Assembly: GCF_002188635.1 (NCBI RefSeq)
Contig: NZ_NINX01000035.1
Coordinates: 62,001 to 126,000, forward strand
Direction: 5' to 3'
Source of the DNA: Pigmentiphaga sp. NML030171
GTDB taxonomy: Bacteria > Pseudomonadota > Gammaproteobacteria > Burkholderiales > Burkholderiaceae_B
DNA length: 64,000 nt
Of the stretch, positions 24,176 through 39,575 are shown in pieces. Numbering within the stretch: the stretch's first letter is position 1; each line of letters opens with the position of its first letter. Made by a program: the position numbers and the translations under genes. The notes under the pieces were generated by a model, which searched no databases, had not been told where the DNA came from, and was given only the letters and a program-made list of their open reading frames with translations.

Positions 24176-24267
24176 GGAAGCGTGCCCGAGTGGCCGAAGG
24201 GGCTCCCCTGCTAAGGGAGTATGCGGCTAAAACTGCATCGTGGGTTCGAATCCCACCGCTTCCGCCA
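24176..24267 (+). tRNA. tRNA-Ser (anticodon GCU)
   Basis: A 92-nt class II tRNA with encoded CCA (24265-24267). The acceptor arms GGAAGCG and CGCTTCC pair fully; the anticodon stem CTCCC/GGGAG closes the loop CTGCTAA with GCT at 24210-24212; a long variable arm follows; the T-arm carries GGTTCGAATCC. It reads AGC/AGU serine codons. A P4-type integrase fragment begins 176 bp downstream, so its 3' end is the probable attachment site of an integrated element. I found no second copy of the tRNA 3' end in the window. Confidence 0.97.
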
Positions 24268-24310
24268 GTTATCGATTTTTGGTGATTCGCCAAAGTTCGT
24301 AGAAGTCCAG

Positions 24311-24345
24311 AAACCCGCATCAGCTAAGGCGATGCGGGTTTTTTC
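24311..24345 (+). terminator. Intrinsic terminator after tRNA-Ser
   Basis: AAACCCGCATC and GATGCGGGTTT form an 11-bp stem around AGCTAAGGC, followed by a T-run (TTTTTTC). A classical rho-independent terminator for the tRNA transcript. Confidence 0.85.
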
Positions 24346-24381
24346 TTGCCCGGAACGGTTCGCCAGAGTTCGCCTACAGCC

Positions 24382-24443
24382 GGGGTATTTGGGGGTATTT
24401 CTGGGGGTATCATCAAGATACCCCGTCTTCACAGATACCCCCA
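24382..24443. repeat. GGGGTAT heptamer cluster upstream of the integrase fragment
   Basis: GGGGTAT occurs three times forward (24382, 24392, 24404) and as reverse ATACCCC twice (24418-24424, 24436-24442); the third and fourth form the palindrome GGGGTATCATCAAGATACCCC. The position just before the integrase start suggests binding sites for the integrase arm domain or an autoregulator. A 21-bp near copy (18 matches) lies at 35273-35293. Confidence 0.55.
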
Positions 24444-24764
24444 ATGCCGCTCACAGATACCGCCGTGCGACAGGCGAAGCCCCAGGACAAGCCCCGGAAG
24501 ATGGCGGACGGAGGAGGGCTGTACTTGCTGGTCAACCAGGTAGGCAAGTACTGGCGCTGGAAATACCGTTACCAGGGCAAGGAAAAGGTGCTGGCGCTGG
24601 GCGTCTATCCCGACGTTTCTTTGGCTCAGGCCCGCGAGCGGCACCAAGAAGGGCGGAAGATCCTGGCTTCGGGAGCTGATCCAGTGGCGGCGCGCAAGCA
24701 GCAGGCCAGCGCGCCCGAGGCCCTGACGTTTGAGCAGGCCGCCCGGGAATGGTGGGCGCATTGA
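24444..24764 (+). pseudogene. Truncated P4-type tyrosine integrase (arm-binding domain only)
   Basis: The 106 residues (MPLTDTAVRQAKPQDKPRK and on) form the DUF4102 arm-DNA-binding domain of tRNA-targeting integrases: ADGGGLYLLV, KYWRWKYRYQGK and LGVYPDVSLAQARERHQ. The frame breaks at LTFEQAAREWWAH, where the core-binding domain should begin. The catalytic domain with R, HxxR and Tyr is entirely missing. The break coincides with the beginning of a decarboxylase-like sequence, so a deletion fused the two. Intact relatives are about 400 residues. It should be inactive as a recombinase. Confidence 0.88.
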
Positions 24765-25714
24765 GCCTGCACGCTATACGACCGGACGCTGCCCCTGGTC
24801 CTGGGGGAAGTCGACGTGCCGGGTGTCGACCTGCAGTATGTCCATGACCTGGACCCCCGCTCGATCTTCGATCGCATGGCCAACCTGGAGTTCGATGCGG
24901 GGGAAATGTCGCTGTCCGAATACGCCTGCGGCCTGGCGCGCGGCGACGACCGGTTCGTCGGCATACCGGTTTCCCGTCGCGCATGTTCCGCCATGGCTAC
25001 GTGTGCGTGAACCGCGGCGCGGGCATCGCGAGCCCGCGCGATCTGGCCGGGAAGCGGATAGGCGTGCCGCTTTACACGATGACCGCGGCGGTCTACATCC
25101 GCGGCGTGCTGCAAGAGGAATACGGCGTCGATTTTTCGAACGTCCAGTGGGTGCAGGGGGCGGTGAACGGCACCGGCAGCCACGGCGATCCGCAGGCGCC
25201 GCCCCTGCTCAAGCCGGTCGACATCGTCCGGAACGACGACGGACGGTCGCTGAGCGATTTGCTGGACGAGGGGGCCATCGACGCGTACCTCGGTTCCCGC
25301 CTGCCCGCGTCCCTGGACCGGGGCAACGTCGAGCGGCTCTTCCCGGACTTCAGGGCCGTGGAGCGCGAATACCTGTCGCGCACGGGCATTTTCCCCATCA
25401 TGCACCTGGTAGTGATTCGCAGGGACGTGCTGCAGCGCCATCCCTTCGTGGCCCGCAGCCTGTTCGACGCCTTCGAGTCGGCCAGGCGCGCGGCCTGGCG
25501 GCGGCTGGAAGATACCGGGACGCTGGCCTGCATGCTGCCGTGGATGCGGCAGGATGTGGAAGAGATGAAGCGTCTGTTTCCAGGCGGAGATCCCTGGGTC
25601 TACGGCGTCGAGCCGAACCGGCCGGCGCTGGAGACGCTGCTGCGCTACCTGTTGCGCCAGGACATGATCGCGCGGCCCATGACGGTGGAGGAGTTGTTTC
25701 CCGTACCGTTGTGA
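24765..25714 (+). pseudogene. Decarboxylase-like (4,5-dihydroxyphthalate decarboxylase / substrate-binding fold), 5'-truncated and frameshifted
   Basis: Translation in two frames gives one family-like protein. The first part (ACTLYDRTLPLVLGEVDVP, LEFDAGEMSLSEYACGL, GDDRFVGIPV) runs in one frame to about 24970; the second (MFRHGYVCVNRGAGIAS, GKRIGVPLYTMTAAVYIRG, PWVYGVEPNRPALETLLRY) continues in another to 25714. A single missing base in GGTTTCCCGTCGCGC restores continuity. The first few codons and the start are replaced by the integrase stump. The family includes Pht5-type aromatic decarboxylases and periplasmic-binding-protein-like folds; which function this ancestor had is not clear. It lies next to an aromatic-acid cluster, which fits a catabolic origin. 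Confidence 0.75.
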
Positions 25715-25765: not shown

Positions 25766-26158
25766 CTACCGCTCCGAGGCCCAAGGCTGTTTCCAATTTC
25801 GGCAAAGCCAGATGCCTCCACCTTCAAGACGGATGGGGAGAAGGGAGAGTGGAGTACGGCAGGGGGGTGATATCGCAGCTCCGCTAGCGATATCGAACGC
25901 TCCTCCATGCAGCGGGCAATAAACCACGCTCCCCATTTGCGCGCCTTCGCTGAGCAATGCGTTGCCATGCGTGCAACGATCATGGGCAGCGAAGTACGCG
26001 TGCCCTACCTGGAAGATCACCAGGCGCGAAAGCCCCGGTACGGCGACCGATGCGGGGCGTCCTTCGCGCACGTCGGACATGCGGCAGAGGTAGATCTGCT
26101 TCGCGTTCGAACCGTCCCTGTCTTCCGGAACGGTTGAACAGGGCGTCGCGTGCGGCAC
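25766..26158 (-). CDS. Rieske-type ferredoxin
   Basis: A small electron carrier of the kind that feeds ring-hydroxylating oxygenases. The 130-residue product has the [2Fe-2S] ligand pattern C-x-H (DRCTHGNALLSEG, about residue 62) and C-x2-H (VVYCPLHGGAFDI, about 80), and ends in IRLEGGGIWLC. The start is GTG 26158, three bases after the stop of the upstream bug gene on the same strand, so the pair is an operon; a shorter form starting at MSDVREGRP is possible. The nearby oxygenase genes are divergent. The terephthalate system normally uses a fused ferredoxin-reductase instead, so this suggests a separate ferredoxin and a reductase encoded elsewhere. Confidence 0.85.
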   Translation of the reverse strand: MPHATPCSTVPEDRDGSNAKQIYLCRMSDVREGRPASVAVPGLSRLVIFQVGHAYFAAHDRCTHGNALLSEGAQMGSVVYCPLHGGAFDIASGAAISPPCRTPLSLLPIRLEGGGIWLCRNWKQPWASER

Positions 26159-26161
26159 GGC

Positions 26162-27130
26162 TCAGTCTGTCTTGATGTCGTTGTCCGTCACTACCTTCTG
26201 CCATTTTGCAAGTTCGCTCTTCAGATAAGAGGCGAACTCCTCCGGGCTGCCTCCCAGAGTCTGAAGTTCTCCGCCGGGAGATAGTTGCTTGACGACGGCG
26301 GGGTCTTTCAGCGCGCTGTTGACGGCACGATTGAGTGTGTCGACGATATGCTTGGGGGTGCGCGCGGGAGCCATCAAACCACTCCAGGCTGAAGACTCGA
26401 AGCCGGAGATGCCTTGTTCCGCGACTGTCGGAACGCCGCCGATGGCGGCGATCTTGGTGGAGCTGCCGACCGCCAGCGCGCGTAGCCGTCCCGCCTGGAT
26501 CTGTGGCAGAACGTCCAGGACCGAGCCAAACGACGCCTGGACTTCTCCACCGATCACCGCGACGACTGCAGGGGCGCTGCCGCGATAGGGCACCCCCACC
26601 ATTTGCATACCCGTTGCTCCCTTCAATAGCTCCATCCCCAGGTGCACGGAACTGCCGACCCCGTTATGCGCATAGTTCATAGGGGCCTTGCGTGAGGCGG
26701 CAACCAGGTCTGCAAGATTCCGCGCGCTCGAAGATGCCGGTACGACGAGTACGTTCGGTGCGGAAACGAGCAGAGAAATCGGCGAGAAGTCCGCGATAGG
26801 GTCGTACGTCAGATTGGGCGTCAACGCGGGGGAAATGGCATTGGGTCCTACGGCGGCCAGCAGCAGTGTGTAGCCGTCGGCCGGAGCTTTGGCCACTTGG
26901 GTGGCACCAATGATGCCGTTCGCCCCGACTTTGTTCTCGACGATGAAGCCTTGTTTGAGCGACGCCCGAAGCGCTTCCGCGATGACTCTCGCGACGTGAT
27001 CGTAGTACCCGCCGGCGGGATAGGGCACCACGATTTTCACGGGACGATCAGGGTAGGGGGATTGGGCATGGGCAGCACCGGCCGTGAAGGCTGCGCTGAG
27101 GGCTAGTGCTATGGCGGCTTTGCGTGGCAT
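26162..27130 (-). CDS. Bug/TctC-family periplasmic solute receptor
   Basis: Bug proteins bind small carboxylates in the periplasm and pass them to a TctAB-type permease, or act as sensors. The 322-residue product has a signal peptide ending at AHAQSPYPDRP, then the family blocks VKIVVPYPAGGYYDHVAR, VENKVGANGIIGATQVAKA, ADGYTLLLAAVGP, VGVPYRGSAPAVVAVIGGEV and VPTVAEQGISGF. No TctAB genes are in the window. Its position opposite the TphA2-like genes parallels tphC, the terephthalate receptor of Comamonas, so an aromatic acid ligand is the best guess. Confidence 0.9.
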   Translation of the reverse strand: MPRKAAIALALSAAFTAGAAHAQSPYPDRPVKIVVPYPAGGYYDHVARVIAEALRASLKQGFIVENKVGANGIIGATQVAKAPADGYTLLLAAVGPNAISPALTPNLTYDPIADFSPISLLVSAPNVLVVPASSSARNLADLVAASRKAPMNYAHNGVGSSVHLGMELLKGATGMQMVGVPYRGSAPAVVAVIGGEVQASFGSVLDVLPQIQAGRLRALAVGSSTKIAAIGGVPTVAEQGISGFESSAWSGLMAPARTPKHIVDTLNRAVNSALKDPAVVKQLSPGGELQTLGGSPEEFASYLKSELAKWQKVVTDNDIKTD

Positions 27131-27190
27131 GGAGGTCTCCTTGGCTTTATGCCGGCCACTGTATGAAGTTTCAATATTCTTGTCAATAAA

Positions 27191-27257
27191 TTCGAAATTA
27201 TTTGTCTGATTCGATTTGTGATGATAGGATGCAAAAAACTAAAGTGATTTCGAAATT
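27191..27257. promoter_or_regulatory. Paired TTCGAAATT sites in the divergent control region
   Basis: The nonamer TTCGAAATT occurs at 27191-27199 and again at 27249-27257 (the second as part of ATTTCGAAAT, a 10-bp palindrome) in the AT-rich gap between bug and the GntR gene. Two similar sites in a divergent promoter region are a reasonable operator for the neighbouring GntR regulator. No experimental consensus was available to compare. Confidence 0.4.
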
Positions 27258-27307
27258 GCTCTTGGCCGAAACCCTGAAGGGAAGCTAAGGGCGCGGAGAG
27301 GCCAAGC

Positions 27308-27973
27308 ATGGCAAGTTCTAAAACCAGCATTGCGACTACCCTCACTACCCGTCTGCGGGAAGCGATCCTGACCGGCGAGGTGCTCCCCGAGTCGCGGCTC
27401 CATCTGGAGTCGCTGGGGGAGCAGTACGGCGTCAGTCTCAGCCCTGTTCGAGAGGCGTTGCTTCGCCTGATGGCGGAGGGTTTTGTCGTTGCCGAAGACC
27501 AGCGCGGTTTTCGTGTCGTCGAAGCGTCGATCAAGAAGCTGGCCGAAGTCACGGCACTTAGGGCCCATATGGAGCCGTTTGCCTTACGCCATGCGATCGA
27601 GCTGGGCGATCTGGCCTGGGAAGAAAAGCTTGTCGCGGTTTTTCATCGCCTCACCCGGATCGAGCAACGCGACGGTTTCGTCCCGTTCCTGGACGAGTGG
27701 GAGCGGACGCACCGTGAATTCCATCTTTGCCTGGTCTCGGGCTGCGACATGCCGATGGTGACGCAGTTTTGCTCCGTGCTGCATGACCAGTCCGATCGGT
27801 TCCGGAGATTGTTCCTCAAGGAGCGGCCGCCCCAGCGGAACGTGGCTCAGGAGCATGCCGCAATCGTCGATGCCGTCCTGGCCCGGGATGCAGACCGCGC
27901 TTGCGAGTTGCTGCGCGCGCACAGCCTGCAGACGGGACAGGCTGTCCAGGCATTCATGCGCGAGTCGAGTTGA
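27308..27973 (+). CDS. GntR-family transcriptional regulator (FCD subfamily)
   Basis: A DNA-binding regulator of the FadR/VanR type whose C-terminal FCD domain senses an organic acid. The 221-residue product has an N-terminal winged helix (RLREAILTGEVLPESRL, then VSLSPVREALLRLMAEGFV at residue about 42) and a helical FCD domain (about 75-210) with RTHREFHLCLVSGCDM and EHAAIVDAVLARDAD, including the metal-ligand His residues. It lies between the divergent bug/ferredoxin pair and the oxygenase operon, 43 bp before the latter, so it probably controls both in response to the aromatic substrate. TphR in Comamonas is of the IclR type, so the regulator differs. Confidence 0.9.
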   Translation: MASSKTSIATTLTTRLREAILTGEVLPESRLHLESLGEQYGVSLSPVREALLRLMAEGFVVAEDQRGFRVVEASIKKLAEVTALRAHMEPFALRHAIELGDLAWEEKLVAVFHRLTRIEQRDGFVPFLDEWERTHREFHLCLVSGCDMPMVTQFCSVLHDQSDRFRRLFLKERPPQRNVAQEHAAIVDAVLARDADRACELLRAHSLQTGQAVQAFMRESS

Positions 27974-28016
27974 ATCCTATAACAACACACGGCAAATCAG
28001 TCATCGGAGGTGCAGC

Positions 28017-29243
28017 ATGCAGTATCGCGAGTGGACAAAAGGAGATCTGACCCGCGTTCCCTATTGGGTCTATGGAGACGATGCGATCTATCGACAGGAA
28101 CAAGAACGCATTTACCAAGGCGATACATGGAGCTTTCTCGGCCTAGAGGCAGAGTTGCCCGAGTCGGGGGACTACAAGACGACGTTTGTCGGCGACATGC
28201 CGGTGATCGTATGCCGTGATGAGGGCGGCGTCATCCGAGCGTTCGAAAACCGTTGTTCGCACCGGGGCTCGTTGCTGGCCCTGCAAAACAAGGGCAAGGC
28301 CCGCAAGTTCACGTGTGTCTACCACGCATGGACGCATGATTTGCAGGGCAATCTCAAGACGGTGGCCTTCCGCCGCGGCGTGAATGGCGCCGGCGGTATG
28401 CCGGACAGTTTCGATACGGCCGACCACGGGCCGCGAAAACTGCGTGTCGAAGTGTACTGTGGTCTGATCTTCGGAACCTTGAGTGAGAAGACTCCGCCTG
28501 TTGAAGAATATCTGGGTGACGAAGTCGCCAGCCGGGTGAAGCGGGTTCTGCACAAGCCGCTGCGAATCTACGGCCAGTACACCCAGGCGCTTCCCAACAA
28601 TTGGAAGCTCTACTTCGAGAACGCGAAAGATACGTACCACTCCAGCTTGCTGCATACCTTTTTCGCAACGTTCAAGGTCTCTCGGCTCTCGCAGGGAGGA
28701 GGGGTGATCGTGGCCGAAAGCGGCGGGCACCATGTCAGCTATTCCCTGAGCCATAGCGGGGGCCAGGACGACGAGTTCAAGAAGGAAGGGTTGCGCAGCA
28801 ATCAGGAAGAGAACTTTCTTCTTAACGACAAGAGCGTTCTCAACATCGTTGACGAATTCGGCGACGGTTGCCACGTACAGATTCTGTCGATATTTCCGGG
28901 GTTCGTGTTGCAGGCGATTCACAACAGCTTGGCCGTTCGGCAAATCGTTCCGAAGGGCCCGGACCGCACAGACCTCGTGTGGACGCTCATAGGTTTCACG
29001 GATGACGACGAGGCCCTGCAGAAGCTGCGCATGAAGCACTCCAACCTCGTGGGGCCGGCTGGTTACGTCTCGATGGAGGACGGTGCTGTGGGTGGATTCG
29101 TCCAACGAGGAATCGCTGGATCCAACGACGCCGAGTCTGTGGTTCTTATGGGGGGAGAAGGGGCCGAGTCTTCGTCTTCCCGTGCTTCCGAGACCTCTAT
29201 CCGGGGTTTCTGGAAAGAGTACCGTAACCATATGGGACTGTGA
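28017..29243 (+). CDS. Ring-hydroxylating dioxygenase alpha subunit, terephthalate dioxygenase (TphA2)-like
   Basis: Catalytic subunit that adds O2 to an aromatic acid to give a cis-dihydrodiol. In the 408-residue product the Rieske ligands are C80, H82, C100 and H103 (RCSHRG and CVYHAW); the mononuclear iron site is in NWKLYFENAKDTYHSSLLH with D205, H208 and H213. Long stretches match my recollection of Comamonas TphA2: GGMPDSF, HGPRKLRV, RVLHKPL, LPNNWKLYFEN, SGGHHVSYS, ISVFPGFVLQ-like LSIFPGFVLQAI, MEDGAVGGFVQRGIAG and TSIRGFWKEYR. ATG 28017 has GGAGG seven bases upstream. First gene of a six-gene operon. Substrate most likely a benzene-carboxylate, perhaps terephthalate. Confidence 0.88.
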   Translation: MQYREWTKGDLTRVPYWVYGDDAIYRQEQERIYQGDTWSFLGLEAELPESGDYKTTFVGDMPVIVCRDEGGVIRAFENRCSHRGSLLALQNKGKARKFTCVYHAWTHDLQGNLKTVAFRRGVNGAGGMPDSFDTADHGPRKLRVEVYCGLIFGTLSEKTPPVEEYLGDEVASRVKRVLHKPLRIYGQYTQALPNNWKLYFENAKDTYHSSLLHTFFATFKVSRLSQGGGVIVAESGGHHVSYSLSHSGGQDDEFKKEGLRSNQEENFLLNDKSVLNIVDEFGDGCHVQILSIFPGFVLQAIHNSLAVRQIVPKGPDRTDLVWTLIGFTDDDEALQKLRMKHSNLVGPAGYVSMEDGAVGGFVQRGIAGSNDAESVVLMGGEGAESSSSRASETSIRGFWKEYRNHMGL

Positions 29244-29244
29244 G

Positions 29245-29724
29245 ATGGAAGAGAACAAAGAACATCTGGTGTCCGCGCTGGCGGCTTTGATGGAAGACTA
29301 CGGCAGAGCCATAGATAGGGACGAGCTGGAGCGCTGGCCTGATTTCTTCGAAGAACAGTGCAATTACAAGATCACCTCGATCGATAACGAGCAAAGCGGC
29401 TATCCGTTTGGCGTGCTATGTGCCGACTCCAGAGGAATGCTGGCGGATCGGGTCAAGTCGCTGCGCGAGGCGAATGTCTACGAGGGGCAACGCTACCGGC
29501 ACGTCATGGGGCGTCCGGTGGTGTTGTCGGTTGACGGCCCGCTGATTCATGCCGAAACCAGCTTTCTGGTGGTGCGGACAATGCGGACCGGTGAAATGTC
29601 CATGTTCGCGGCAGGCGTCTATCGCGATGTGGTCTCGCTTAGAGCCTCCAAGCCGGCTTTCGCGGAGCGCATCGTGGTCTGTGACAGCTCGCGTATCGAC
29701 ACATTGCTGGCATTGCCTTTGTGA
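29245..29724 (+). CDS. Ring-hydroxylating dioxygenase beta subunit, TphA3-like
   Basis: Small structural subunit of the alpha3beta3 oxygenase. The 159-residue product matches the NTF2-like beta family and, from memory, TphA3: ELERWPDFFEEQCNYKI (residue about 26), SLREANVYEGQRYRHVMG (about 72), ETSFLVVRTMRTGEMSMFA (about 102) and the end ERIVVCDSSRIDTLLALPL. The ATG begins one base after the alpha subunit stop. The next gene starts at or just after its stop codon. Confidence 0.88.
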   Translation: MEENKEHLVSALAALMEDYGRAIDRDELERWPDFFEEQCNYKITSIDNEQSGYPFGVLCADSRGMLADRVKSLREANVYEGQRYRHVMGRPVVLSVDGPLIHAETSFLVVRTMRTGEMSMFAAGVYRDVVSLRASKPAFAERIVVCDSSRIDTLLALPL

Positions 29725-29732
29725 GTTTCTCA

Positions 29733-30728
29733 ATGGCGCTGAAAAGAATCGCGGTTACGTTGGGAGATCCATCGGGGATCGGACCGGAAATCGCATTGAA
29801 GGCATCCGACGACCCGCGTATCCGCAACAGCCTGAGTCTGGTTCTGTTTGGCGACAAACGGGCGTTGGACGCGCACGCGAAGCTTTGCGGACTGCGGGCC
29901 GACTACCGCCTGCTGCGGTCAATGGCGGACATTGCCAGCCTGGACCAGGGGCTGGCCCTGATGGACGTCCCGAGCTTGGACGAAAGCTTTCGAATCGGCG
30001 AGGTGTCGGCCGCGTCGGGTGCGGCAACCATCGCGGCGCTGGATGCAGCGGTCGATGCGGCGAAAGCAGGAGTGGTCGATGCAGTGGTCGGTTCGCCGAT
30101 CCATGAGACCGCCATCAAACAAGCAGGCATTGCGTTCGACGGACATCCGTCGTACCTGGCGCGCCGTACGGGGACGCCGGTCGATGAAGTCGGATTGATG
30201 CTCTGCTGGGAAAGAACCAGAGTCGCTCACGTGACCCTGCACCTCAGTGTCAGGGACGCCTTGACTGCCATTACGCAAGACCGGGTAGAGAAGGTCATTC
30301 GTACGACTGCACAGGCTCTGGGCCGGCTGGGTATCGCCCGGCCGCGGATAGGCGTATCGGGCGTCAATCCGCATGCTGGCGAGTCTGGCCTGTTCGGCCG
30401 CGAGGAGATCGAAATCATCGCGCCAGCGATTGGCAAGCTGCGTGACGATGGCATGGATCTTATCGGACCTATCGGGGCCGATACGCTCTTGCCCAGGAAG
30501 GACTGCGATGCGTTCGTCGTCATGCTGCACGACCAGGGACATGTCGCTGCAAGGGTGGCGGCGCCTAACATGGCTGCCGCGATGTCGATCGGCACCCCGG
30601 TCGTGTTTTCCTCGGTAGGACATGGAACGGCGATGGACATCGCGGGCAAGGGAGTTGCGAATCCGGAAGCCTTGGTCCAAGCATTGCTCCATGTTTCGAA
30701 TACATTTCCCACTGGAGACGGAGAATGA
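29733..30728 (+). CDS. PdxA-family cis-diol dehydrogenase, TphB-like
   Basis: PdxA-fold NAD-dependent oxidoreductases that also decarboxylate; the TphB branch converts the terephthalate dihydrodiol to protocatechuate and CO2. The product (about 331 residues) has RIAVTLGDPSGIGPEIALKA, SPIHETAIKQAGIAFDGHPS, VTLHLSVRDAL, GVNPHAGESGLFGREE, VMLHDQGHVAARVAAPN and SSVGHGTAMDIAGKGVANP; the conserved His residues in these blocks are the metal ligands of PdxA. Given the two oxygenase genes before it, a diol dehydrogenase role is more likely than pyridoxine synthesis. GTG 29721, overlapping the previous stop as GTGA, is an alternative start. Confidence 0.87.
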   Translation: MALKRIAVTLGDPSGIGPEIALKASDDPRIRNSLSLVLFGDKRALDAHAKLCGLRADYRLLRSMADIASLDQGLALMDVPSLDESFRIGEVSAASGAATIAALDAAVDAAKAGVVDAVVGSPIHETAIKQAGIAFDGHPSYLARRTGTPVDEVGLMLCWERTRVAHVTLHLSVRDALTAITQDRVEKVIRTTAQALGRLGIARPRIGVSGVNPHAGESGLFGREEIEIIAPAIGKLRDDGMDLIGPIGADTLLPRKDCDAFVVMLHDQGHVAARVAAPNMAAAMSIGTPVVFSSVGHGTAMDIAGKGVANPEALVQALLHVSNTFPTGDGE

Positions 30729-31663
30729 TAGGTCTTGGTCTGGCATCCTCCCACGCGCCGGCGATGTTCTGCCCACCTGAGCTGTGGCCGAAGGTCTATG
30801 GCGCGATTCCCGACTACATGAAGGATTCGCAGCCGCATACTGCGAAGCTCGAAACGCCGGAGGTCATTCGCAGCTACGTGAATCGGATCGATGCAGCCTT
30901 CGAGGTCCTGCGGAAACAGCTGGAAGCGTATCGACCCGACGCGGTGATTTTCGTCGGCGACGATCAGGAGGACATGTTCGACGCACGGTGCAATCCGGCG
31001 ATGTGCCTGTTTACCGGCGATGAGGTGTGGGGTTCCGAAGCGCCGTTCTATGTCGATCAACCGCCTCGAGCGTCGCGGATCCATGTGCCGGTGCACAAGG
31101 AATTGTCGAACCATTTGCTCGAAGAGCTTCTGAACGATGGTTTCGATATGGCCAGCTCCTCGGTCATGAATCCCATGGGGCCGCATTCGGAGCGGGGCAC
31201 CTCGCACATGATCGTCTATCCGGCCAAGCGCCTGCTTCCCAGGTTGGACGTGCCGATCATCCCCCTGTACCTGAATTGCTACTTTCCGCCCTTGCCAACC
31301 GCCGCCCGGTGTTGGCAGCTCGGCGAGGCGCTTGCGCGCATCCTGGCCACGCGCAAAGAACGCGTCGCCATTTATGCGTCCGGAGGGTTGTCGCATGATC
31401 CGGTCGGTCCAAGAGCCGGATGGATCGATACGCCCATGGACAAATGGATTCTTGATCGCATCGCAACCAACAGGGGCCGAGACCTCCAGCATCTCTTTAC
31501 GATGGACTCGGCCACCATGCGTGGCGGCTCCGGCGAGATCCGCGCATGGATCGTTGCCGCTGCCGCGTGCCAATGGAAAGGCGAGATAGTCGATTACATT
31601 CCCGCCCATCATGCGAAGACTGGGTTGGGGTTTGCGTATTGGCCGCAACAACCCAAGGAGTAA
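30725..31663 (+). CDS. LigB-type extradiol ring-cleavage dioxygenase
   Basis: A class III extradiol dioxygenase that opens a catechol ring next to the hydroxyls. The 312-residue product begins MIGLGLASSHAPAMF with the iron-ligand His in SSHAP, continues with FVGDDQEDMFD, GPHSERGTSHM, LYLNCYFPPLPTAARCW, ASGGLSHDPVGPRAGW (the second conserved His) and YIPAHHAKTGLGF. These resemble the beta subunit of protocatechuate 4,5-dioxygenase. No LigA-like small subunit is encoded nearby, so it may act alone like MhpB-type or DesZ-type enzymes. It overlaps the dehydrogenase stop by 4 bp (ATGA). Confidence 0.87.
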   Translation: MIGLGLASSHAPAMFCPPELWPKVYGAIPDYMKDSQPHTAKLETPEVIRSYVNRIDAAFEVLRKQLEAYRPDAVIFVGDDQEDMFDARCNPAMCLFTGDEVWGSEAPFYVDQPPRASRIHVPVHKELSNHLLEELLNDGFDMASSSVMNPMGPHSERGTSHMIVYPAKRLLPRLDVPIIPLYLNCYFPPLPTAARCWQLGEALARILATRKERVAIYASGGLSHDPVGPRAGWIDTPMDKWILDRIATNRGRDLQHLFTMDSATMRGGSGEIRAWIVAAAACQWKGEIVDYIPAHHAKTGLGFAYWPQQPKE

Positions 31664-31666
31664 GAC

Positions 31667-32113
31667 ATGTTGCCTGCACGAATCGACGTCGGGAGCGTGA
31701 GCAAGCGGATGGGCTCCTATTCCGACGAAAGCCGGAGTATTGAAAGTCGTACCAAGATATATGAAGAGTTGGTAGGTTTTCTCCCGCCCCGTATCGAAGC
31801 GCGTTTCCATGTGACCGGGGCGATCGATCCGACGATGCTGCGCTTGCAGGAAGAGGCGCGAGAGCATGGGATGTATCCGAAGTGCTTCGATGTAAAGACG
31901 GCGCAGCTCTTGTTGTTCGGGATGTTGCTCATGGATCTCAGCGATGCCGCCGTTCTGCACGGTGTCGCTGCCCGCAAGGCGGGAGCGAGCTGGGACGAAA
32001 TGCAAGCGGTCGTGAACCTGTGCTATTTGTTCCGCGGCTTGTCTGCCGCCAATCGAGGTGCGGAGATCCTCGCTCGCATCTGCGAACAGGAGGAGGGGAC
32101 TGGCCGTGACTAA
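31667..32113 (+). CDS. Carboxymuconolactone-decarboxylase-like small protein
   Basis: The 148-residue product has an AhpD/CMD-like helical segment near residues 80-140: LLLFGMLLMDLSDAAVLHGVAARKAGASWDEMQAVV and RGLSAANRGAEIL (conserved His in LHG). It lacks the CxxC pair of AhpD, so peroxidase activity is unlikely. CMD proteins often accompany aromatic pathways as lactone decarboxylases or isomerases, but a lactone is not expected after extradiol cleavage, so its job here is open. It starts three bases after the dioxygenase stop and overlaps the hydrolase start by 8 bp. Confidence 0.7.
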   Translation: MLPARIDVGSVSKRMGSYSDESRSIESRTKIYEELVGFLPPRIEARFHVTGAIDPTMLRLQEEAREHGMYPKCFDVKTAQLLLFGMLLMDLSDAAVLHGVAARKAGASWDEMQAVVNLCYLFRGLSAANRGAEILARICEQEEGTGRD

Positions 32114-32939
32114 TTCCGAGAATCCTGAAATTGGCCTGAGGTTGCGAGTTGGCCAGATCGATACGAACTACCACGACCAGGGCGAAGGCCATCCGGTACT
32201 GTTGATTCACGGTTCAGGGCCGGGCGTTACGGCCTGGGCGAATTGGCGCCTGAATATCGGTCCCCTGGCCGAGCGTGCGCGCGTCCTGGCGCCCGACATG
32301 GTAGGGTTCGGATACACCGAAGCGCCGCCGTCTGTTTCATACGATCTGGATACCTGGGTCGATCATCTGATCGGCTTCCTGGATGCCCTCTCTCTTCCCC
32401 AGGTCGACTTGGTTGGCAACTCGTTCGGCGGAGGTGTTTCACTGGCGGTTGCGAGTCGCCATCCCGACCGGGTTCGCCGCCTGGTGCTGATGGGGAGCGT
32501 GGGGACGTCGTTCCCGCTCACGCCCGGCCTTGACGCCGTGTGGGGCTATGAGCCATCGCTTCAGAATATGAAGGGATTGCTGGATGTGTTCGCCTATGAC
32601 CGCAAGTTGGTGTCCGATGAGTTGGCTGAGTTGCGCTATCGGGCGAGTATCCGTCCCGGGGTGCAGGAACGGTTCGGCCGCATGTTCTCGCCCGGCCCTC
32701 GGCAGCGTTACATAGAGGCGCTAGCGACACCAGAGGAGCAGCTGCGAACCCTGCAGCATGAGACGCTTGTCGTCCATGGGCGTGAAGATCAGGTAATTCC
32801 TCTGCAGAATTCAATCAAATTAGCGTCGCTTCTTCCGCGCGCTCAACTGCATGTGTTCCCTCATTGCGGGCACTGGACACAAATCGAATGGACGGCGACG
32901 TTCAACCGTCTTGTCGGTGATTTCCTCGCCGCTCCTTGA
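32106..32939 (+). CDS. Meta-cleavage-product alpha/beta hydrolase
   Basis: A carbon-carbon bond hydrolase of the BphD/XylF/MhpC type that splits the ring-opened product into 2-hydroxypentadienoate-type acid and a carboxylate. The 277-residue product shows VLLIHGSGPGVTAWANWR (oxyanion region, residue about 31), the nucleophile elbow GNSFGGG with Ser106, Asp228 in GREDQVIP and His256 in HCGHWTQIE. SGPG followed by W is typical of this subfamily. GTG 32106, with GGAGGAGG upstream, was chosen over a longer start inside the CMD gene. It is the last gene of the operon; hydratase and aldolase genes for the next steps are not in the window. Confidence 0.88.
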   Translation: MTNSENPEIGLRLRVGQIDTNYHDQGEGHPVLLIHGSGPGVTAWANWRLNIGPLAERARVLAPDMVGFGYTEAPPSVSYDLDTWVDHLIGFLDALSLPQVDLVGNSFGGGVSLAVASRHPDRVRRLVLMGSVGTSFPLTPGLDAVWGYEPSLQNMKGLLDVFAYDRKLVSDELAELRYRASIRPGVQERFGRMFSPGPRQRYIEALATPEEQLRTLQHETLVVHGREDQVIPLQNSIKLASLLPRAQLHVFPHCGHWTQIEWTATFNRLVGDFLAAP

Positions 32940-32987: not shown

Positions 32988-33464
32988 CTAACGCCCGGTG
33001 ACGGCCCTGGCCAGCATGAATACGCCCAATCCCACGAAAACGATGGCGATGATGCGATTCGCCGCCACCAGGCCTGCACTTCCCGGCGCAAGCCGTCGCC
33101 CTGTGCGCGCGAGCACCGAGTAGCCCATCAGCGCCGAAAACGAGAAAGCCAGCAGTATCGAGGTAAGAGCGGCGAACTGCGGCAGCAAGGGGCGATTGGC
33201 CTGGATGAATTGCGGCAGCAGGGCCAGGAAGAACAGGATGGCCTTGGGGTTGGATAGCGCGACGAACATGCCTTGGGTGAAGAGGCTGGCGGGCGACGGC
33301 ATGCTTTCGCGGCTCGCGGTTTGCAGGGGCGCGGAGGCGGTGCGCCATTTCTTGATGCCGAGATGGACGAGGTAGGCCGCGCCGGCCAATTGCAGGGCGG
33401 CATAGCCGATGCTGGACGCGACCAGCACGCCGCCTATGCCGACCAAGGCGGCAAGGGCCAGCGT
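32988..33464 (-). pseudogene. LysE/RhtB-family exporter, N-terminus deleted
   Basis: Remaining sequence covers about 155 of the usual 205-210 residues of an amino-acid exporter: LALAALVGIGGVLVASSIGYAALQL, AAYLVHLGIKKWRTA, QGMFVALSNPKAILFFLALLPQFI and the C-terminal membrane segments. The first transmembrane helix and its GP motif are missing. The family-like sequence stops near 33464, where a gene fragment on the other strand begins, so the gene lost its 5' end in a deletion. Converges with the hydrolase gene. Confidence 0.8.
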
Positions 33465-34252
33465 GCTTCGTGGTGGAGCCCAAACCGGGCGCGGGCGGCG
33501 AGGTGGCGGCCAAACACATCATGGGAACTCCCGCCGATGGGTACAACCTGCTGGTGACCGGATCCTCGATCACGATCCGCGCGGCCTCCAATGAGAAGAA
33601 TGCGGATGGCCTGCGCGATCTGCAGCCGATCGCGCAGATCACGACGACGCCCTACGTGATCGTCGCGAAAGCGGGGAAGTTCAAGACCTTCAAGAATCTG
33701 ATCGACCAGGCCAAACCGAGCGGCAGCAAGATCGACTTCGCCTCTGCCGGCGTGGGCACGGGCATGCACTACCTGGGCGAGCTGATCAACATCAGCGCGG
33801 GTACGCACATGGTGCACGTTCCCTACAGCACGGGTTCCAGGCAGTTGCAGGCAGTGATGGCGGGAGATGTGGACATCGCCATCATTTCCCTGGTGACGGC
33901 TTGGCCGTACATCAGTGCGGGGACGATGGAAGCGCTTGCCGTGAGCTCCGCCGAACGCAGCGCCGTGGCCACCGGCGTGCCTACGCTGCATGAACTGGGG
34001 CTGCGCGACGTGCCCGCCATCGGCGCGTGGATCGCCGTGTTCGGTCCCAAGAACATGGATCCCGCGGTTACGAAGAGCCTGGCGGATGAAATCACCGCGA
34101 TCGCCAAATCTCCGGCCACCCAGGAAACGGTCAAGGGCTGGGCCGCGGAACTGCCCGATACCAGCACCGCCGCGCTGACCGACGTGGTGCGCTCGGAAAC
34201 GGAATTCTGGAAGAAACTGATCAAGGAGCGGAATCTGCCGGTGGCGGATTGA
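33465..34252 (+). pseudogene. Bug/TctC-family receptor, N-terminus deleted
   Basis: The frame begins abruptly at FVVEPKPGAGGEVAAK, which corresponds to about residue 65-70 of intact Bug proteins, and continues with ADGYNLLVTGSS, FKTFKNLIDQAK, VHVPYSTGSRQLQAVMAGDV and VPTLHELGLRDVPAIGAW to a normal C-terminus. Signal peptide and first lobe are absent. It abuts the truncated lysE head to head. A GTG at 33470 could be read as a start but the product could not fold or be exported normally. The next gene, a sulfurtransferase, follows after 37 bp. Confidence 0.85.
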
Positions 34253-35593: not shown

Positions 35594-37330
35594 ATGCATG
35601 CATCGGGTGGATATCTGGCTGTTGGGTGGGGCGCCGGAGGTTTGGCGGCGGTTCTGGCGGTTGCCGGCTGCGGTGGGTCGGGCGCGGTGCCTGAGCCTCA
35701 GGCGCTGACCGGAGAGGCAGCCTGCGCGGCAGTCAAGGATTTCAGCAGCGCAGAGCACAAGGGTGTCATCACCAGCGCCACCTGGGTACCGGCCGCCACG
35801 GAGAAGTCCGCTCCGACCGCGGCAACCTTCCTGCCGGCCCACTGTGTGGTCCAGGGTTCCCTGGAACCCCGGACAGGCGTGGACGGAAAGCGCTACGCGA
35901 CGAAGTTCGAACTTCGTCTGCCGCTCGAGTGGAATCGGCGCTTCTTCTTTCAAGGCGGCAGCGGGCTCGAGGGCACGCTGGCTCCCGCGTATGGACCGAC
36001 GGGCGGAGCGAAGACGGCCCTGGAGCAGGGTTTCGCGGTGGTTTCCCAGAACGGCGGCCACGACAATGCCGACCTGCCGGCGCCCGAGGCCTTCGGCTTC
36101 GATCCCCAGGCGAAGGTGGATTTCGGCTACGGGGCCATCATCAAGACGTCCAAGGCCGCCAAAAGCCTGATCGCGGACTACTATGGCGACGCGATCGAGC
36201 GCTCGTATTTCGATGGATGCTCCACCGGGGGGCGGCAGGGCATGGCTTTTGCGCAGCGTTTTCCGGACGAGTTCGATGGCATCGTCGCGGGCGCTCCGGT
36301 ATTCGACTTCGGCCGGGTCGTGGCGGCCCGGATCTGGGGTTGGCAGAAGGCCGCCGCGGTGGTGTCCCGGGATATCAATGGCATGCCGCGCTTCCACGAG
36401 GCGATGCCGCAGGCCGATCGCCAGTTGTTCCAGCGCGAGCTGCTGGCTGCCTGCGACGCGCAGGATGGCGCGGTCGACGGCATGATCAGCAATGTGGCCG
36501 CCTGCACGTTCCGCCCGAAAGCGCTGCTTTGCACCGGAGAGAAGACCCCGGAATGCCTGTCGGCCGAACAGGTGGGTATCTGGGAAGCCGTCCTGGACGG
36601 GCCGGTCGACTCCGGTGGCGCCGCGTTCAAGGTGCCGGGCTATCGAGCCCCAGGCGAGGTCCCGGTCCGCGGCTATCGCATCGACGCCGCCTGGATGACG
36701 TCTTCCGGTCAGGCTGCGCGCATCACGGGGCAGGGGCCGATTCTGGATATCCAGTGGAAACTGAATATCGACCCGACGCCGATCCTGTTCATGACCCCGC
36801 CCCAGCCGGGATTCCGGCCCCTGGATGATGTCGATTGGGATACCTGGGGCAATTCGATGACCGTCAATGCGCCGTGGCTGATGTCGGACCCGGATCTGGG
36901 GCGCTATCGCGACCGGGGAGGCAAGATGATCTTCTATCACGGCACGGGGGACAGCGGACCGAACGCCGTCGACACCATCGACTACTACGAATCCGTCGTG
37001 GCACTCAATTCGAGCCGCGAGCAAACGGGCCGGTTCGCCAGGCTTTTCCTTGTGCCGGGCATGGGCCATTGCAGGGGAGGTCCCAGCACCGACTCCTTCG
37101 ACCGGCTGGCACCCATCATGGATTGGGTCGAGCGCGGCAAGGCACCGGATGTCATCGTTGCGCAGGCAACACCGGGCAACGCCGATCTCGCCGCGGTGAC
37201 GCCCGCGATTCCGGCCAGCCGGACGCGTCCGCTTTGCCCGTATCCCGCGTACCCGCGCTACAAGGGAACCGGGTCGATAGACGACGCCGCCAGCTTCACG
37301 TGCACGCTGCCCGTAGCCGATCCGGCGTAA
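35594..37330 (+). CDS. Tannase/feruloyl-esterase family lipoprotein, MHETase-like
   Basis: A secreted serine esterase for aromatic acid esters. The 578-residue product has a lipoprotein signal with the lipobox VAGC (Cys26). Catalytic residues are visible: Ser210 in GCSTGGRQ, Asp453 in YHGTGDSGPNA and His492 in PGMGHCRGG; Cys209 and Cys493 beside Ser and His match the tannase-family disulfide. As I recall Ideonella MHETase (603 residues), the N-terminus (LPAHCVVQGSLEPRTGVDGK, EWNRRFFFQGGSG, GGHDNA), GKMIFYHG, RFARLFLVPGM and RTRPLCPYPAYPRYKGTG are closely similar, while the lid (about residues 330-420) looks shorter. Whether it acts on mono-hydroxyethyl terephthalate or on plant esters cannot be told. 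Gene stands alone after a terminator. Confidence 0.85.
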   Translation: MHASGGYLAVGWGAGGLAAVLAVAGCGGSGAVPEPQALTGEAACAAVKDFSSAEHKGVITSATWVPAATEKSAPTAATFLPAHCVVQGSLEPRTGVDGKRYATKFELRLPLEWNRRFFFQGGSGLEGTLAPAYGPTGGAKTALEQGFAVVSQNGGHDNADLPAPEAFGFDPQAKVDFGYGAIIKTSKAAKSLIADYYGDAIERSYFDGCSTGGRQGMAFAQRFPDEFDGIVAGAPVFDFGRVVAARIWGWQKAAAVVSRDINGMPRFHEAMPQADRQLFQRELLAACDAQDGAVDGMISNVAACTFRPKALLCTGEKTPECLSAEQVGIWEAVLDGPVDSGGAAFKVPGYRAPGEVPVRGYRIDAAWMTSSGQAARITGQGPILDIQWKLNIDPTPILFMTPPQPGFRPLDDVDWDTWGNSMTVNAPWLMSDPDLGRYRDRGGKMIFYHGTGDSGPNAVDTIDYYESVVALNSSREQTGRFARLFLVPGMGHCRGGPSTDSFDRLAPIMDWVERGKAPDVIVAQATPGNADLAAVTPAIPASRTRPLCPYPAYPRYKGTGSIDDAASFTCTLPVADPA

Positions 37331-37393: not shown

Positions 37394-37813
37394 TCAGATC
37401 CCCATTTCCGCGAACACCTCCAGCATCACCCGCTGCCCGTCCAGCGCCGCGGGCACGCCGCAATAGATGGCGGCCTGCAGGAAGACCTCGTTGATCTCTT
37501 CCTTGGTCAGGCCGTTGTTGATCGCGCCGCGCACGTGCAGCCGCAGCTCGTGCGGACGGTTCAGTGCCGTGATCATGGCCAGGTTCAGGAAGCTGCGGGT
37601 GCGCCGGTCGAGTCCGGGCCGGTTCCAGACGTCGCCCCAGCAATGCTGCGTGACCAGCTGCTGCAGTTCCATGCGCAGCGGGTCCTCGGCGGCCTTGGCC
37701 AGCGAGGCGTCCACGTATTCGCGGCCGAGCACCTCGCGGCGGGTGGCCAGGCCCTGTTCGAACAAGGCTTCGTTGTAGCTGCCGCCAAGCGCGGTACGGT
37801 TGGATCGGGTCAT
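37394..37813 (-). CDS. Carboxymuconolactone decarboxylase family protein (PcaC-like)
   Basis: The 139-residue product resembles gamma-carboxymuconolactone decarboxylase: RREVLGREYVDASLAKA (residue about 25), WGDVWNRPGLDRRTRSFLNLAMITALNRPHELRLHVRGA... region (about 59-95) and EEINEVFLQAAIYCGVPAAL (about 105), including the conserved HVRGA and Glu residues. PcaC acts in protocatechuate ortho-cleavage; here no other pca genes are near, so it probably works on a related lactone or acid in the downstream catabolic operon. Last gene of the minus-strand cluster. Confidence 0.85.
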   Translation of the reverse strand: MTRSNRTALGGSYNEALFEQGLATRREVLGREYVDASLAKAAEDPLRMELQQLVTQHCWGDVWNRPGLDRRTRSFLNLAMITALNRPHELRLHVRGAINNGLTKEEINEVFLQAAIYCGVPAALDGQRVMLEVFAEMGI

Positions 37814-37855: not shown

Positions 37856-39559
37856 TCAACCGCGGGCCGGGATCAGGGGCATCAGCAGGTAGCTGTCCCG
37901 TTCGCCACCGGTGTGGACGGTGGTCCGGCCGTCGAAGATCCCGGCCGGTCGGTCCTGCGGATGGTCGTGGCGCAAGCGCCCCGGCGGGTCGACGATGAAG
38001 TCATGGCCCTGCAGCGTCAGCACCAGGCGCCAGCCACGCGGGAAGACCATGCTGGTGGGCCAGATCTCGATATCCAGCGGATAGGCCTGGCCCGGCTCGA
38101 GTTCCTGGATTTCATCGTGCGTATGCCAGGGCCGGTAGGGCAGGCTGCGGGCGGGATCCGTCTTCCTGCGCGAGGCGCGCAGCCAGCCCAGCGCCATGGG
38201 TACCCGTTCGTGCGCGCCGATGAAGCTGGCTTCCTTGCCCTCCGGGTCGAACACGCGCAGCACGGCGAAGATGTCCATGTCGGCGGTCGATGACGACGCC
38301 CACAGGCGCAGGCTCGCGGGGCCGGTGAATTCGACGTCCTCTTCGAACGGCGCGGTCGAGAAGTGCAAGCCTTCGCCCATCGCGTCGAACACCGCCCGGC
38401 CGCCTGCCCCGGGCGCCTGCGGCGCCAGCATCAGCGCGTCCGCGTCCAGATGCAAGCGCGTCCATCGTGTCCGGGCCAGCGGCCATTCGTGTTCCTGGCG
38501 CAGCTCGGCGGTGCCGTCGGGACGGCGGATGGCCAGCTGGACACGAGGCTCGCGGTCCCAGCCGTTGTCCGCGCCGCGCAGATAGTGGTCGAAGAAACGT
38601 TTTTGCAGGGCGACGTAGCGGGGCAGGTAGAAGCTCTCGTAGTGGGTGCCGATGTGGGCGAACAGCCATTTGTCCCGCGATCCGGCACGCAGGAAACCTT
38701 CGAAGTTGCCGCGCAGGTGCATGCCCGGTCCGCCCCAGTTCGCGGCCGACAGGATGGGTACCTGGATCGCGGACAAGTCGGCTTCGCGGGCCTGGTTCCA
38801 GGCGTCGTCCAGTGGATGCTCCAGGCGGTCGCGCGGGTGGTCCGCGCGGCTGCCCCGCAGGATGGCTTCGGGCAGGTCGGGGCCGGTGGTGCGTTCGCCG
38901 GTCAGGCGGTCGCGGTGGGTGCTGGCGCCGCTGCCGTACTGATTGGCCAGCACCTGGCGCGGCCACCAGGCCTCGGTGAAGCTGTTGCTCAGGATGCCGC
39001 CGTGATAGCTGCCGTCGCGGTACAGGTCGCTGGATCCTTCCCAAGGCACGATGGCGGCAAGGTGCGGGGGCCGCAAGGCGGCCACCTGCCACTGCTTGAT
39101 CGCGAGATAGGACACGCCGATCAGGCCTACCTTGCCATTGGACCATGGCTGGCCGCCCGCCCACTCTATCCATTCATAGAGATCGCGCGTCTCGATGGGC
39201 CCGAATGGATCGAGGTAGCCCTCGGAGCGGCCCGTGCCGCGCGAATCGACCTGGATCACGACGAAGCCGTCGGGCACCCAGCGCTCGGGGTCGACGACTT
39301 CCCAGCGCAGGTAGCGTCCGGTCGTGCCCTCGGTGTCCAGACCCGGGTAGATTTTCTTCAGGACCTGCCATTGGGGCTGGTAGGCATCCGCGAAATGGAC
39401 GTCCTTGCCGTAGGCGCCCATGGCCATGACCACCGGGTGGCGGCCGGCGGCCTCGGGCCGGAAGACATTGGCGCGCAGCACGGTGCCGTCGGACATCGCC
39501 AGCGCGACGTCGCGTTCGAAGATCATGCCGTTCTCGGTGGTGGTGCGGGTCGGGATCAT
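37856..39559 (-). CDS. CocE/NonD-family hydrolase
   Basis: An alpha/beta hydrolase of the X-Pro dipeptidyl-peptidase/cocaine-esterase type. The 567-residue product has FERDVALAMSDGTVLRANVFRPE at the N-terminus, VIQVDSRGTGRSEG (residue about 110), the nucleophile elbow GLIGVSYLAIKQW (Ser about 148) and a C-terminal jelly-roll domain (about 345-560) with GPASLRLWASSSTADMDIFAVL. No signal peptide. ATG 39559 (MIPTRTTTENGMIF) was preferred to a more distant start. Substrate unknown; ester or amide of a small acid. Located between the CMD gene and a Bug receptor in the same direction. Confidence 0.85.
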   Translation of the reverse strand: MIPTRTTTENGMIFERDVALAMSDGTVLRANVFRPEAAGRHPVVMAMGAYGKDVHFADAYQPQWQVLKKIYPGLDTEGTTGRYLRWEVVDPERWVPDGFVVIQVDSRGTGRSEGYLDPFGPIETRDLYEWIEWAGGQPWSNGKVGLIGVSYLAIKQWQVAALRPPHLAAIVPWEGSSDLYRDGSYHGGILSNSFTEAWWPRQVLANQYGSGASTHRDRLTGERTTGPDLPEAILRGSRADHPRDRLEHPLDDAWNQAREADLSAIQVPILSAANWGGPGMHLRGNFEGFLRAGSRDKWLFAHIGTHYESFYLPRYVALQKRFFDHYLRGADNGWDREPRVQLAIRRPDGTAELRQEHEWPLARTRWTRLHLDADALMLAPQAPGAGGRAVFDAMGEGLHFSTAPFEEDVEFTGPASLRLWASSSTADMDIFAVLRVFDPEGKEASFIGAHERVPMALGWLRASRRKTDPARSLPYRPWHTHDEIQELEPGQAYPLDIEIWPTSMVFPRGWRLVLTLQGHDFIVDPPGRLRHDHPQDRPAGIFDGRTTVHTGGERDSYLLMPLIPARG

Positions 39560-39575
39560 GGTGCGGGGAATCTCT

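Follow-up and report, generated by a model that had tools for sequence, protein, structure and literature searches.

The window analysed here is a stretch of 64,000 nucleotides from the 5.86 Mb genome of Pigmentiphaga sp. NML030171 (contig NZ_NINX01000035.1, positions 62,001 to 126,000), and our subject is a gene cluster at 25766-32939 whose operon, judging from its sequence, probably breaks down terephthalate, a building block of polyethylene terephthalate (PET), or a close chemical relative via catechol. All genes of the cluster have open reading frames, at the positions first described for them. Seven lie on the plus strand between 27308 and 32939: a GntR-FCD regulator, likely of the operon (27308-27973; Pfam GntR and FCD), the alpha (28017-29243) and beta (29245-29724; PF00866 36 bits; NF041685 140 bits against a cut-off of 230) subunits of a ring-hydroxylating dioxygenase, a PdxA-family dehydrogenase (29721-30728; PF04166, 267 bits), a class III extradiol dioxygenase of the LigB superfamily with a GDDQ motif (30725-31663; PF02900, 90 bits), a 148-aa protein of the CMD superfamily (31667-32113) and a meta-cleavage product hydrolase with an alpha/beta hydrolase fold (32106-32939). 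Because the spacings from alpha to the hydrolase are 1, -4, -4, 3 and -8 bases, these genes look like one operon (28017-32939). Divergent from it, on the minus strand, are genes for a Rieske [2Fe-2S] ferredoxin of AndAb/HcaC type, the probable electron donor (25766-26158; Pfam Rieske 55.7 bits, NCBIfam AndAb/HcaC models all below cut-off), and for a TctC-type solute-binding protein with a possible role in substrate uptake (26162-27130; PF03401, 226 bits). An earlier note on this DNA had described terephthalate-like oxygenase genes continuing in the same operon with a LigB-type dioxygenase, a CMD-like protein and a hydrolase, and the families, the tight spacings and the recurrence of this order in relatives bear that description out.

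The same note had likened the alpha subunit to TphA2, and our results show that it groups with TphA2 and not away from it. Its closest solved relatives are the terephthalate dioxygenase chains 7vju and 7q04 (~550 bits), followed at 283 bits by a salicylate 5-hydroxylase, and in a tree of 44 rows the window protein and five others form a clade (support 100/100), sister to TphA2, within a 22-row group that holds TphA2 of Comamonas sp. E6 (support 97/95). Identity to E6 TphA2 is 57%, with the iron ligands, R309, S243, R390 and I290 kept. The structure of terephthalate dioxygenase, as described in PMC9060491, has R309, S243, R390 and N224 in contact with terephthalate, N224 touching the second carboxyl. 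S243 and R390 are kept in all 22 rows of the TphA2 group; outside it they are found in 4 and 17 of 22 rows, respectively, and hence are not exclusive to it. The dehydrogenase, likened to TphB in the earlier note, may indeed be of that type: among solved structures it scores best with 4aty, a terephthalate cis-dihydrodiol dehydrogenase (261 bits), although the PdxA-named 8zj3 and kin come next (244) and all others reach 197 or less; against TIGR00557 it scores 276.3 bits, below the cut-off of 290.35. We predict that it is a TphB-like, decarboxylating cis-dihydrodiol dehydrogenase.

As for electron transfer, the ferredoxin gene points to a three-component oxygenase. A ferredoxin 48% identical to it occupies the same position in Pigmentiphaga sp. 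NML080357, and there is a ferredoxin match there in Variovorax ginsengisoli too, where the operon adjoins a gene for an HcaD/AndAa-like reductase that scores below the cut-offs of the models. The TctC protein has an 83% identical counterpart in strain NML080357, and counterparts of the GntR-FCD regulator (93% and 68%) adjoin the same module in two congeners. A parallel arrangement was seen on plasmid 4 of Variovorax WDL1 (L038, 6963-12376), in which genes for a TphA1-like reductase, alpha, beta, PdxA, an alpha/beta hydrolase and a VOC protein lie in a row; this cluster has another extradiol class, an alpha with Thr at the N224 position and no convincing CMD match.

For ring cleavage, we propose that the LigB-type protein is a catechol 2,3-dioxygenase. 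Its best profile match is the beta chain of protocatechuate 4,5-dioxygenase, and its predicted structure (predicted local distance difference test score, pLDDT, 93) has LigAB as best Foldseek match (1bou_B, E 1.4e-18, template modelling score 0.71). The positions of Glu242 and His195 of LigB align in the profile alignment, and His10 corresponds by motif to the N-terminal His of LigB, but Gln81 aligns with His61. We take the iron ligands of LigB to be His, His and Glu, with His61 among them; of this triad the window protein has His10 and Glu271, and Gln81 in place of the second His. The exchange is widespread among relatives, since position 81 is Gln in 24, His in 4 and Ser in 1 of 29 aligned LigB-type proteins, the window's included (from the 32 loci L063-L094, L068 and L075 were left out for internal stop codons and L084 and L093 by choice). 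In the same alignment His10 and Glu271 are each conserved in 28 of 29 proteins and His224 in all of them. The Gln at the His61 position, together with the lack of LigA among the operon's families, rules out an ordinary LigB chain and agrees with the earlier view that the module downstream differs from the LigAB route. A literature search on Gln as a ligand in LigB enzymes returned nothing relevant, and no LigB relative was found in the viral scan.

Some other LigB relatives have surroundings of their own. Two of them (L073 and L074, 58-59% identical) adjoin a DEAD-box helicase gene, with no other panel match nearby. A second cluster type, made up of a dioxygenase, a hydrolase, a ferredoxin and a LigB relative, is present on plasmid pCAR3 of Novosphingobium KA1 (L036, 6903-12022) and at L079-L086 and L088; its LigB relatives are 44-48% identical (40% in KA1), all except KA1 are from Actinomycetota, and five loci show a second LigB gene.

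Taken alone, the 148-aa protein falls outside all Pfam and NCBIfam models at E 0.001, the PcaC equivalog included. A profile of 16 of its relatives matches the CMD structure 3d7i (E 3e-7) and a Thermus relative passes the Pfam CMD model (28.9 bits, cut-off 23), and by these comparisons it is a remote member of the CMD superfamily. The CxxC motif is absent from all 16 relatives in the profile. The predicted structure was poor (pLDDT 54, from 6 close sequences) and was not used. The protein is rare, being found in 4 of 398 Pseudomonadota genomes, its own included (E 1e-10), and it shares 22% identity over 92 aa with a PcaC-like CMD protein of the window (37394-37813, minus strand; TIGR02425 138 bits, below the cut-off of 155.7), which adjoins a CocE/NonD hydrolase (37856-39598, minus strand). 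On contig C8 of the same genome (L167, 5836-7181), a relative with 58% identity adjoins an amidohydrolase-like protein, recognised by eye, and a GntR gene.

What this protein may do is suggested by its relatives in Thermus. Direct comparison gave 65-67% identity over 112 aa to proteins of two Thermus plasmids, and on one of them, pTHEOS01 of Thermus oshimai JL-2, the 65% identical protein (gene at 156-563) is the sole PF02627 match in a search of the plasmid only. According to PMC10815724, which cites Chakraborty et al. 2021, a 4-carboxymuconolactone decarboxylase of strain JL-2 turns protocatechuate into catechol. The window protein may be an orthologue of that enzyme, in view of the 65% identity over 112 aa, the like contexts and the single CMD match on the plasmid. 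The Thermus finding of Chakraborty and colleagues reportedly rests on gene deletion. On three Thermus plasmids the CMD gene is immediately followed by a catechol 2,3-dioxygenase gene and stands opposite to an operon of the 2-hydroxymuconic semialdehyde (HMS) pathway. In Thermus JL-18 the catechol 2,3-dioxygenase near it scores 345.6 bits (cut-off 320.2), a PobA-type protein passes its subfamily model (464.5, cut-off 351) and falls under the TIGR02360 equivalog (399.7, cut-off 538.7), and a QuiC-like protein is under its cut-off. The neighbourhood in another genome (G702) holds DmpE, H, F and G, GntR, a dehydroquinase, a shikimate-dehydrogenase-type protein, a catechol 2,3-dioxygenase-like protein of 317.7 bits, just below 320.2, and a QuiC-like protein whose match covers half the model and, at 410 bits, stays under its cut-off; in Embleya, the CMD gene is accompanied by DmpH and by a catechol 2,3-dioxygenase-like protein that also misses the cut-off (310.7). 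From these likenesses, and from neighbours of the CMD relatives that belong to catechol 2,3-cleavage, the HMS pathway and protocatechuate formation, we propose that the window's CMD-like protein is a protocatechuate decarboxylase.

It could instead act after ring cleavage, in which case the LigB-type protein would be a protocatechuate 2,3-dioxygenase and the CMD-like protein would decarboxylate 5-carboxy-2-hydroxymuconate-6-semialdehyde (the PraH step) ahead of the hydrolase. This model accounts for the same gene set, follows an established protocatechuate 2,3-cleavage pathway with PraA and PraH (PMC12529126; PMC6362003, Table 1) and suits the profile match of the LigB-type protein to a protocatechuate dioxygenase. 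We held it first and demoted it because PMC10815724 cites the work on conversion of protocatechuate to catechol, the activity reported for the Thermus homologue. The CMD relatives, moreover, adjoin TIGR03211 catechol 2,3-dioxygenase-type proteins, one of three over the cut-off, and OpaD, and PraH by its 28% identity to it, belong to another family according to PMC6362003. Decarboxylation after cleavage thus appears improbable to us, and decarboxylation of protocatechuate to catechol is preferred.

The hydrolase, in which the motifs GNSFGG, GRED and CGHW are visible, was called BphD-type in the earlier note. The family of carbon-carbon hydrolases stands, but BphD as nearest kin was set aside, since CumD entries score 377-380 bits, against 200 for an unnamed serine hydrolase and at most 147 for the BphD (~146), HsaD and MhpC types. 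A DesC/DesD-type esterase was considered as well. The protein also groups with the hydrolase of the phenol (dmp) operon of Variovorax SRS16, to which it is 65% identical, and is best described as DmpD/CumD type. Table 1 of PMC6362003 gives DmpD as an HMS hydrolase. The inference once drawn from this gene, that a carbon-carbon hydrolase implies a ring-opened ketone and so perhaps an acyl- or alkyl-benzoate as substrate, is not needed, because the CMD-like protein would deliver catechol and the hydrolase is of the type listed for HMS. A catechol/HMS route can be read from the operon because its CMD-like protein resembles the reported protocatechuate decarboxylase and its hydrolase is of DmpD/CumD type.

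This set of genes is conserved as a unit. A pattern-limited scan of 84,980 species, with one genome for each, found 53 LigB relatives, seven of them 80-87% identical, and the neighbourhoods of these loci, L115 excepted, were scanned. Among the seven close loci, cmd follows ligB in six, pdxA precedes it in six, the hydrolase follows in five and alpha is present in four; two of the contigs lacking alpha begin after it, and in P. humi it is replaced. No CMD protein was detected in the other 45 loci scanned (E 1e-10). Pigmentiphaga sp. NML080357 and V. ginsengisoli have the whole order alpha-beta-pdxA-ligB-cmd-hydrolase, at 66-87% identity, and contigs of Ottowia, Phenylobacterium, Herminiimonas and Hyphomonadaceae have parts of it; the gene order is therefore not due to chance. 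In V. ginsengisoli (L069), 13 kb hold genes for a reductase, DmpE, DmpG, DmpF, the ferredoxin and TctC, and then gntR to the hydrolase. A plasmid of Hydrogenophaga BPS33 carries a shortened cmd beside IS1071, plus a hydrolase whose distance to the Ottowia thiooxydans protein is zero, with a thiolase and an acyl-CoA dehydrogenase nearby that match at 100%.

In P. humi the gntR-ligB-cmd-hydrolase module adjoins a BenA-like dioxygenase and a dehydrogenase (358.8 bits to the 1,6-dihydroxycyclohexadiene-carboxylate dehydrogenase model, cut-off 322), so the front end seems exchangeable. The module could accordingly be a general degrader of dihydroxybenzoates, with the CMD-like protein perhaps auxiliary, and the window's front end could serve another aryl acid, such as a heterocycle or one of the isomers phthalate and isophthalate. 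Besides P. humi, the Herminiimonas operon, in which ligB and the hydrolase gene are not separated by a CMD gene, fits such a reading, and PMC6362003 describes a phthalate route that passes through 2,3-dihydroxybenzoate and HMS. We nevertheless find it rather improbable, given that the alpha subunit falls within the TphA2 group and has S243 and R390, the residues for the para-carboxyl, and that the E6 terephthalate dioxygenase is described as highly specific for para-dicarboxylates (PMC9060491).

For terephthalate, the reactions that we infer would run as follows. The alpha and beta subunits, with the ferredoxin (25766-26158) and a reductase from elsewhere, would add O2 at C1-C2; the PdxA-like dehydrogenase would oxidise the diol with loss of one carboxyl, giving protocatechuate; and the CMD-like protein would remove the second carboxyl to yield catechol. 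The LigB-type protein would then cut catechol beside its hydroxyls to HMS, which the hydrolase would split into formate and 2-hydroxypenta-2,4-dienoate, and DmpE/G/F-type enzymes encoded elsewhere in the genome could convert the latter to pyruvate and acetyl-CoA. Two DmpG homologues are present in the genome, one within a DmpE-F-G-H cluster, and no HMS dehydrogenase match was obtained in the window. The GntR protein is the likely regulator and the TctC protein a likely uptake part. The wider core of this proposal, that is, a benzenedicarboxylate undergoing decarboxylation, extradiol cleavage and hydrolysis, we consider likely, while terephthalate itself as substrate, decarboxylated before ring cleavage, falls slightly short of an even chance. 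Prenylated-flavin enzymes are known as protocatechuate decarboxylases. It is only tentatively that we suggest a self-contained operon from terephthalate, or a ring-alkylated terephthalate, to catechol, in which a small CMD-fold protein lacking CxxC does the work of those enzymes and cleavage is of class III with iron held by His, Gln and Glu.

Several observations weigh against this proposal. R309 is uninformative, as it is Arg in all 44 alphas compared. At the N224 position, all six members of the window's clade have Ser; of the remaining 16 rows of the TphA2 group, 15 have Asn and one, Variovorax WDL1, has Thr. In the window, no TphA1 reductase was found beside the operon (panel reductases, E 1e-8), which has a Rieske ferredoxin instead. 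The genome also carries a second alpha, of N224 type (L166), accompanied by genes for beta, PdxA and a TphA1-like reductase, and an N224-type alpha followed by PdxA occurs in three of the four genomes with the operon's alpha (this one, NML080357 and a Herminiimonas metagenome-assembled genome, not V. ginsengisoli), so that terephthalate may already be served by these paralogues; six LigA matches in the genome fit an ordinary protocatechuate route. Two more CMD relatives in this genome (contig C14, 71%; contig C8, 58%) lie beside TctC and GntR genes, and the panel scan found no extradiol gene near them. To these are added the Herminiimonas operon without CMD, and two of the seven close relatives in which a reductase match follows cmd, without a hydrolase.

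The N224 position and the paralogues bear on the main rival, which combines the earlier note's idea of an alkylated substrate with the decarboxylase. Here, terephthalate bearing a small alkyl substituent ortho to the carboxyl that is kept at first would give an alkyl-protocatechuate, then a 3-alkylcatechol through the CMD-like protein, a ketone (2-hydroxy-6-oxo-dienoate) through the LigB-type protein, and finally a short acid and 2-hydroxypentadienoate. Such a substrate deserves attention because a paralogue of N224 type, accompanied by a reductase, is encoded in the same genome, and it would fit both the Ser at the N224 position and the need for a carbon-carbon hydrolase. The window's hydrolase has as best solved relative CumD, which is named for a 6-isopropyl ketone substrate. 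As expected with a ketone intermediate, the V. ginsengisoli genome gave no HMS dehydrogenase match at a strict E of 1e-150, whereas the other four of five genomes searched have one. However, R390 and S243 are unchanged, the CMD relatives are found in protocatechuate contexts and no natural source of such a compound has been identified, and we consider this substrate unlikely. Degradation of terephthalate or a close relative via catechol is still our preferred reading.

The genomic setting of the operon has features of its own. G+C content is 57-61% in the six 1-kb bins from 27 to 33 kb; of the 26 further bins that make up 18-50 kb, 22 have 65-72%. Upstream, the stretch 24176-24761 is the remnant of an integrated element, consisting of a tRNA-Ser (24176-24267) and a 106-aa integrase piece with an arm-binding domain, which suggests that the region was acquired. 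The reading frame at 24983-25714 recalls a 4,5-dihydroxyphthalate decarboxylase relative, a likeness for which we make no claim; it has a weak NMT1 match and plasmid relatives of 41-46%, two of the eight listed being annotated as ABC substrate-binding proteins. At 32988-34252, a minus-strand LysE-like frame, recognised by eye, abuts a plus-strand TctC-type gene apparently without a start, possibly a deletion junction. A protein of the tannase/feruloyl-esterase family (PF07519, 373 bits), a family that presumably includes MHETase as well, is encoded 2.7 kb downstream of the operon (35594-37330, plus strand), and a collagen-like repeat protein (PF15984, 142 bits) at 48020-50146 on the minus strand.

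If the proposal is true, one operon carries terephthalate oxygenase chemistry on to catechol and through hydrolysis, and it would point to a CMD-fold family of aryl-acid decarboxylases in Proteobacteria, Actinomycetota and Deinococcota, with relevance to PET upcycling, in which catechol or muconate is obtained from terephthalate. The change of N224 to Ser offers a testable sequence rule for the substrate range of terephthalate dioxygenases, and the LigB-type protein is a natural test of whether Gln can stand for His in the LigB iron site. No established pathway with this gene order was met in our plasmid, genome and literature searches, in line with the suggestion of the earlier note that the route may be new. 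Within the papers that they covered, the literature searches found no work joining these parts in one pathway, the nearest published one among those consulted being the opa pathway of Pseudomonas sp. PTH10 (PMC6362003).

Comparison with known systems places the operon between several of them. According to PMC6362003, protocatechuate is the end product of known terephthalate clusters and is passed on to a pathway for protocatechuate cleavage. The window shares with tphA2A3BA1 of Comamonas sp. E6 an alpha 57% identical to TphA2, and its order of beta and PdxA-family genes is that of tph-like plasmid clusters, but it has a Rieske ferredoxin and no adjoining TphA1-like reductase, Ser at N224, and additional genes for an extradiol dioxygenase, a CMD-like protein and a hydrolase. 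T. oshimai JL-2 likewise has a CMD-family protein (65%) that adjoins an extradiol dioxygenase and HMS-pathway genes; its dioxygenase, however, is annotated as catechol 2,3-dioxygenase and is not of LigB type, and the two stretches examined hold no ring-hydroxylating dioxygenase. The opa pathway also takes a phthalate isomer to a dihydroxybenzoate and, by meta-cleavage and one decarboxylation, to HMS, but does so with a type I extradiol enzyme, a BenD-like dehydrogenase and a metallo-hydrolase-type decarboxylase that acts after cleavage, as PMC6362003 describes it. Unlike LigAB, with which it shares the LigB fold, the aligned Glu242 and His195 positions and, by motif, His10, the window protein has no LigA partner among the operon's families and has Gln81 where LigB has His61. 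Unlike dmp operons, the window would cleave the ring with a LigB-type enzyme and has no match to an HMS dehydrogenase; with dmp operons it shares a hydrolase 65% identical to that of Variovorax SRS16, and in V. ginsengisoli dmpE, G and F adjoin the operon itself.

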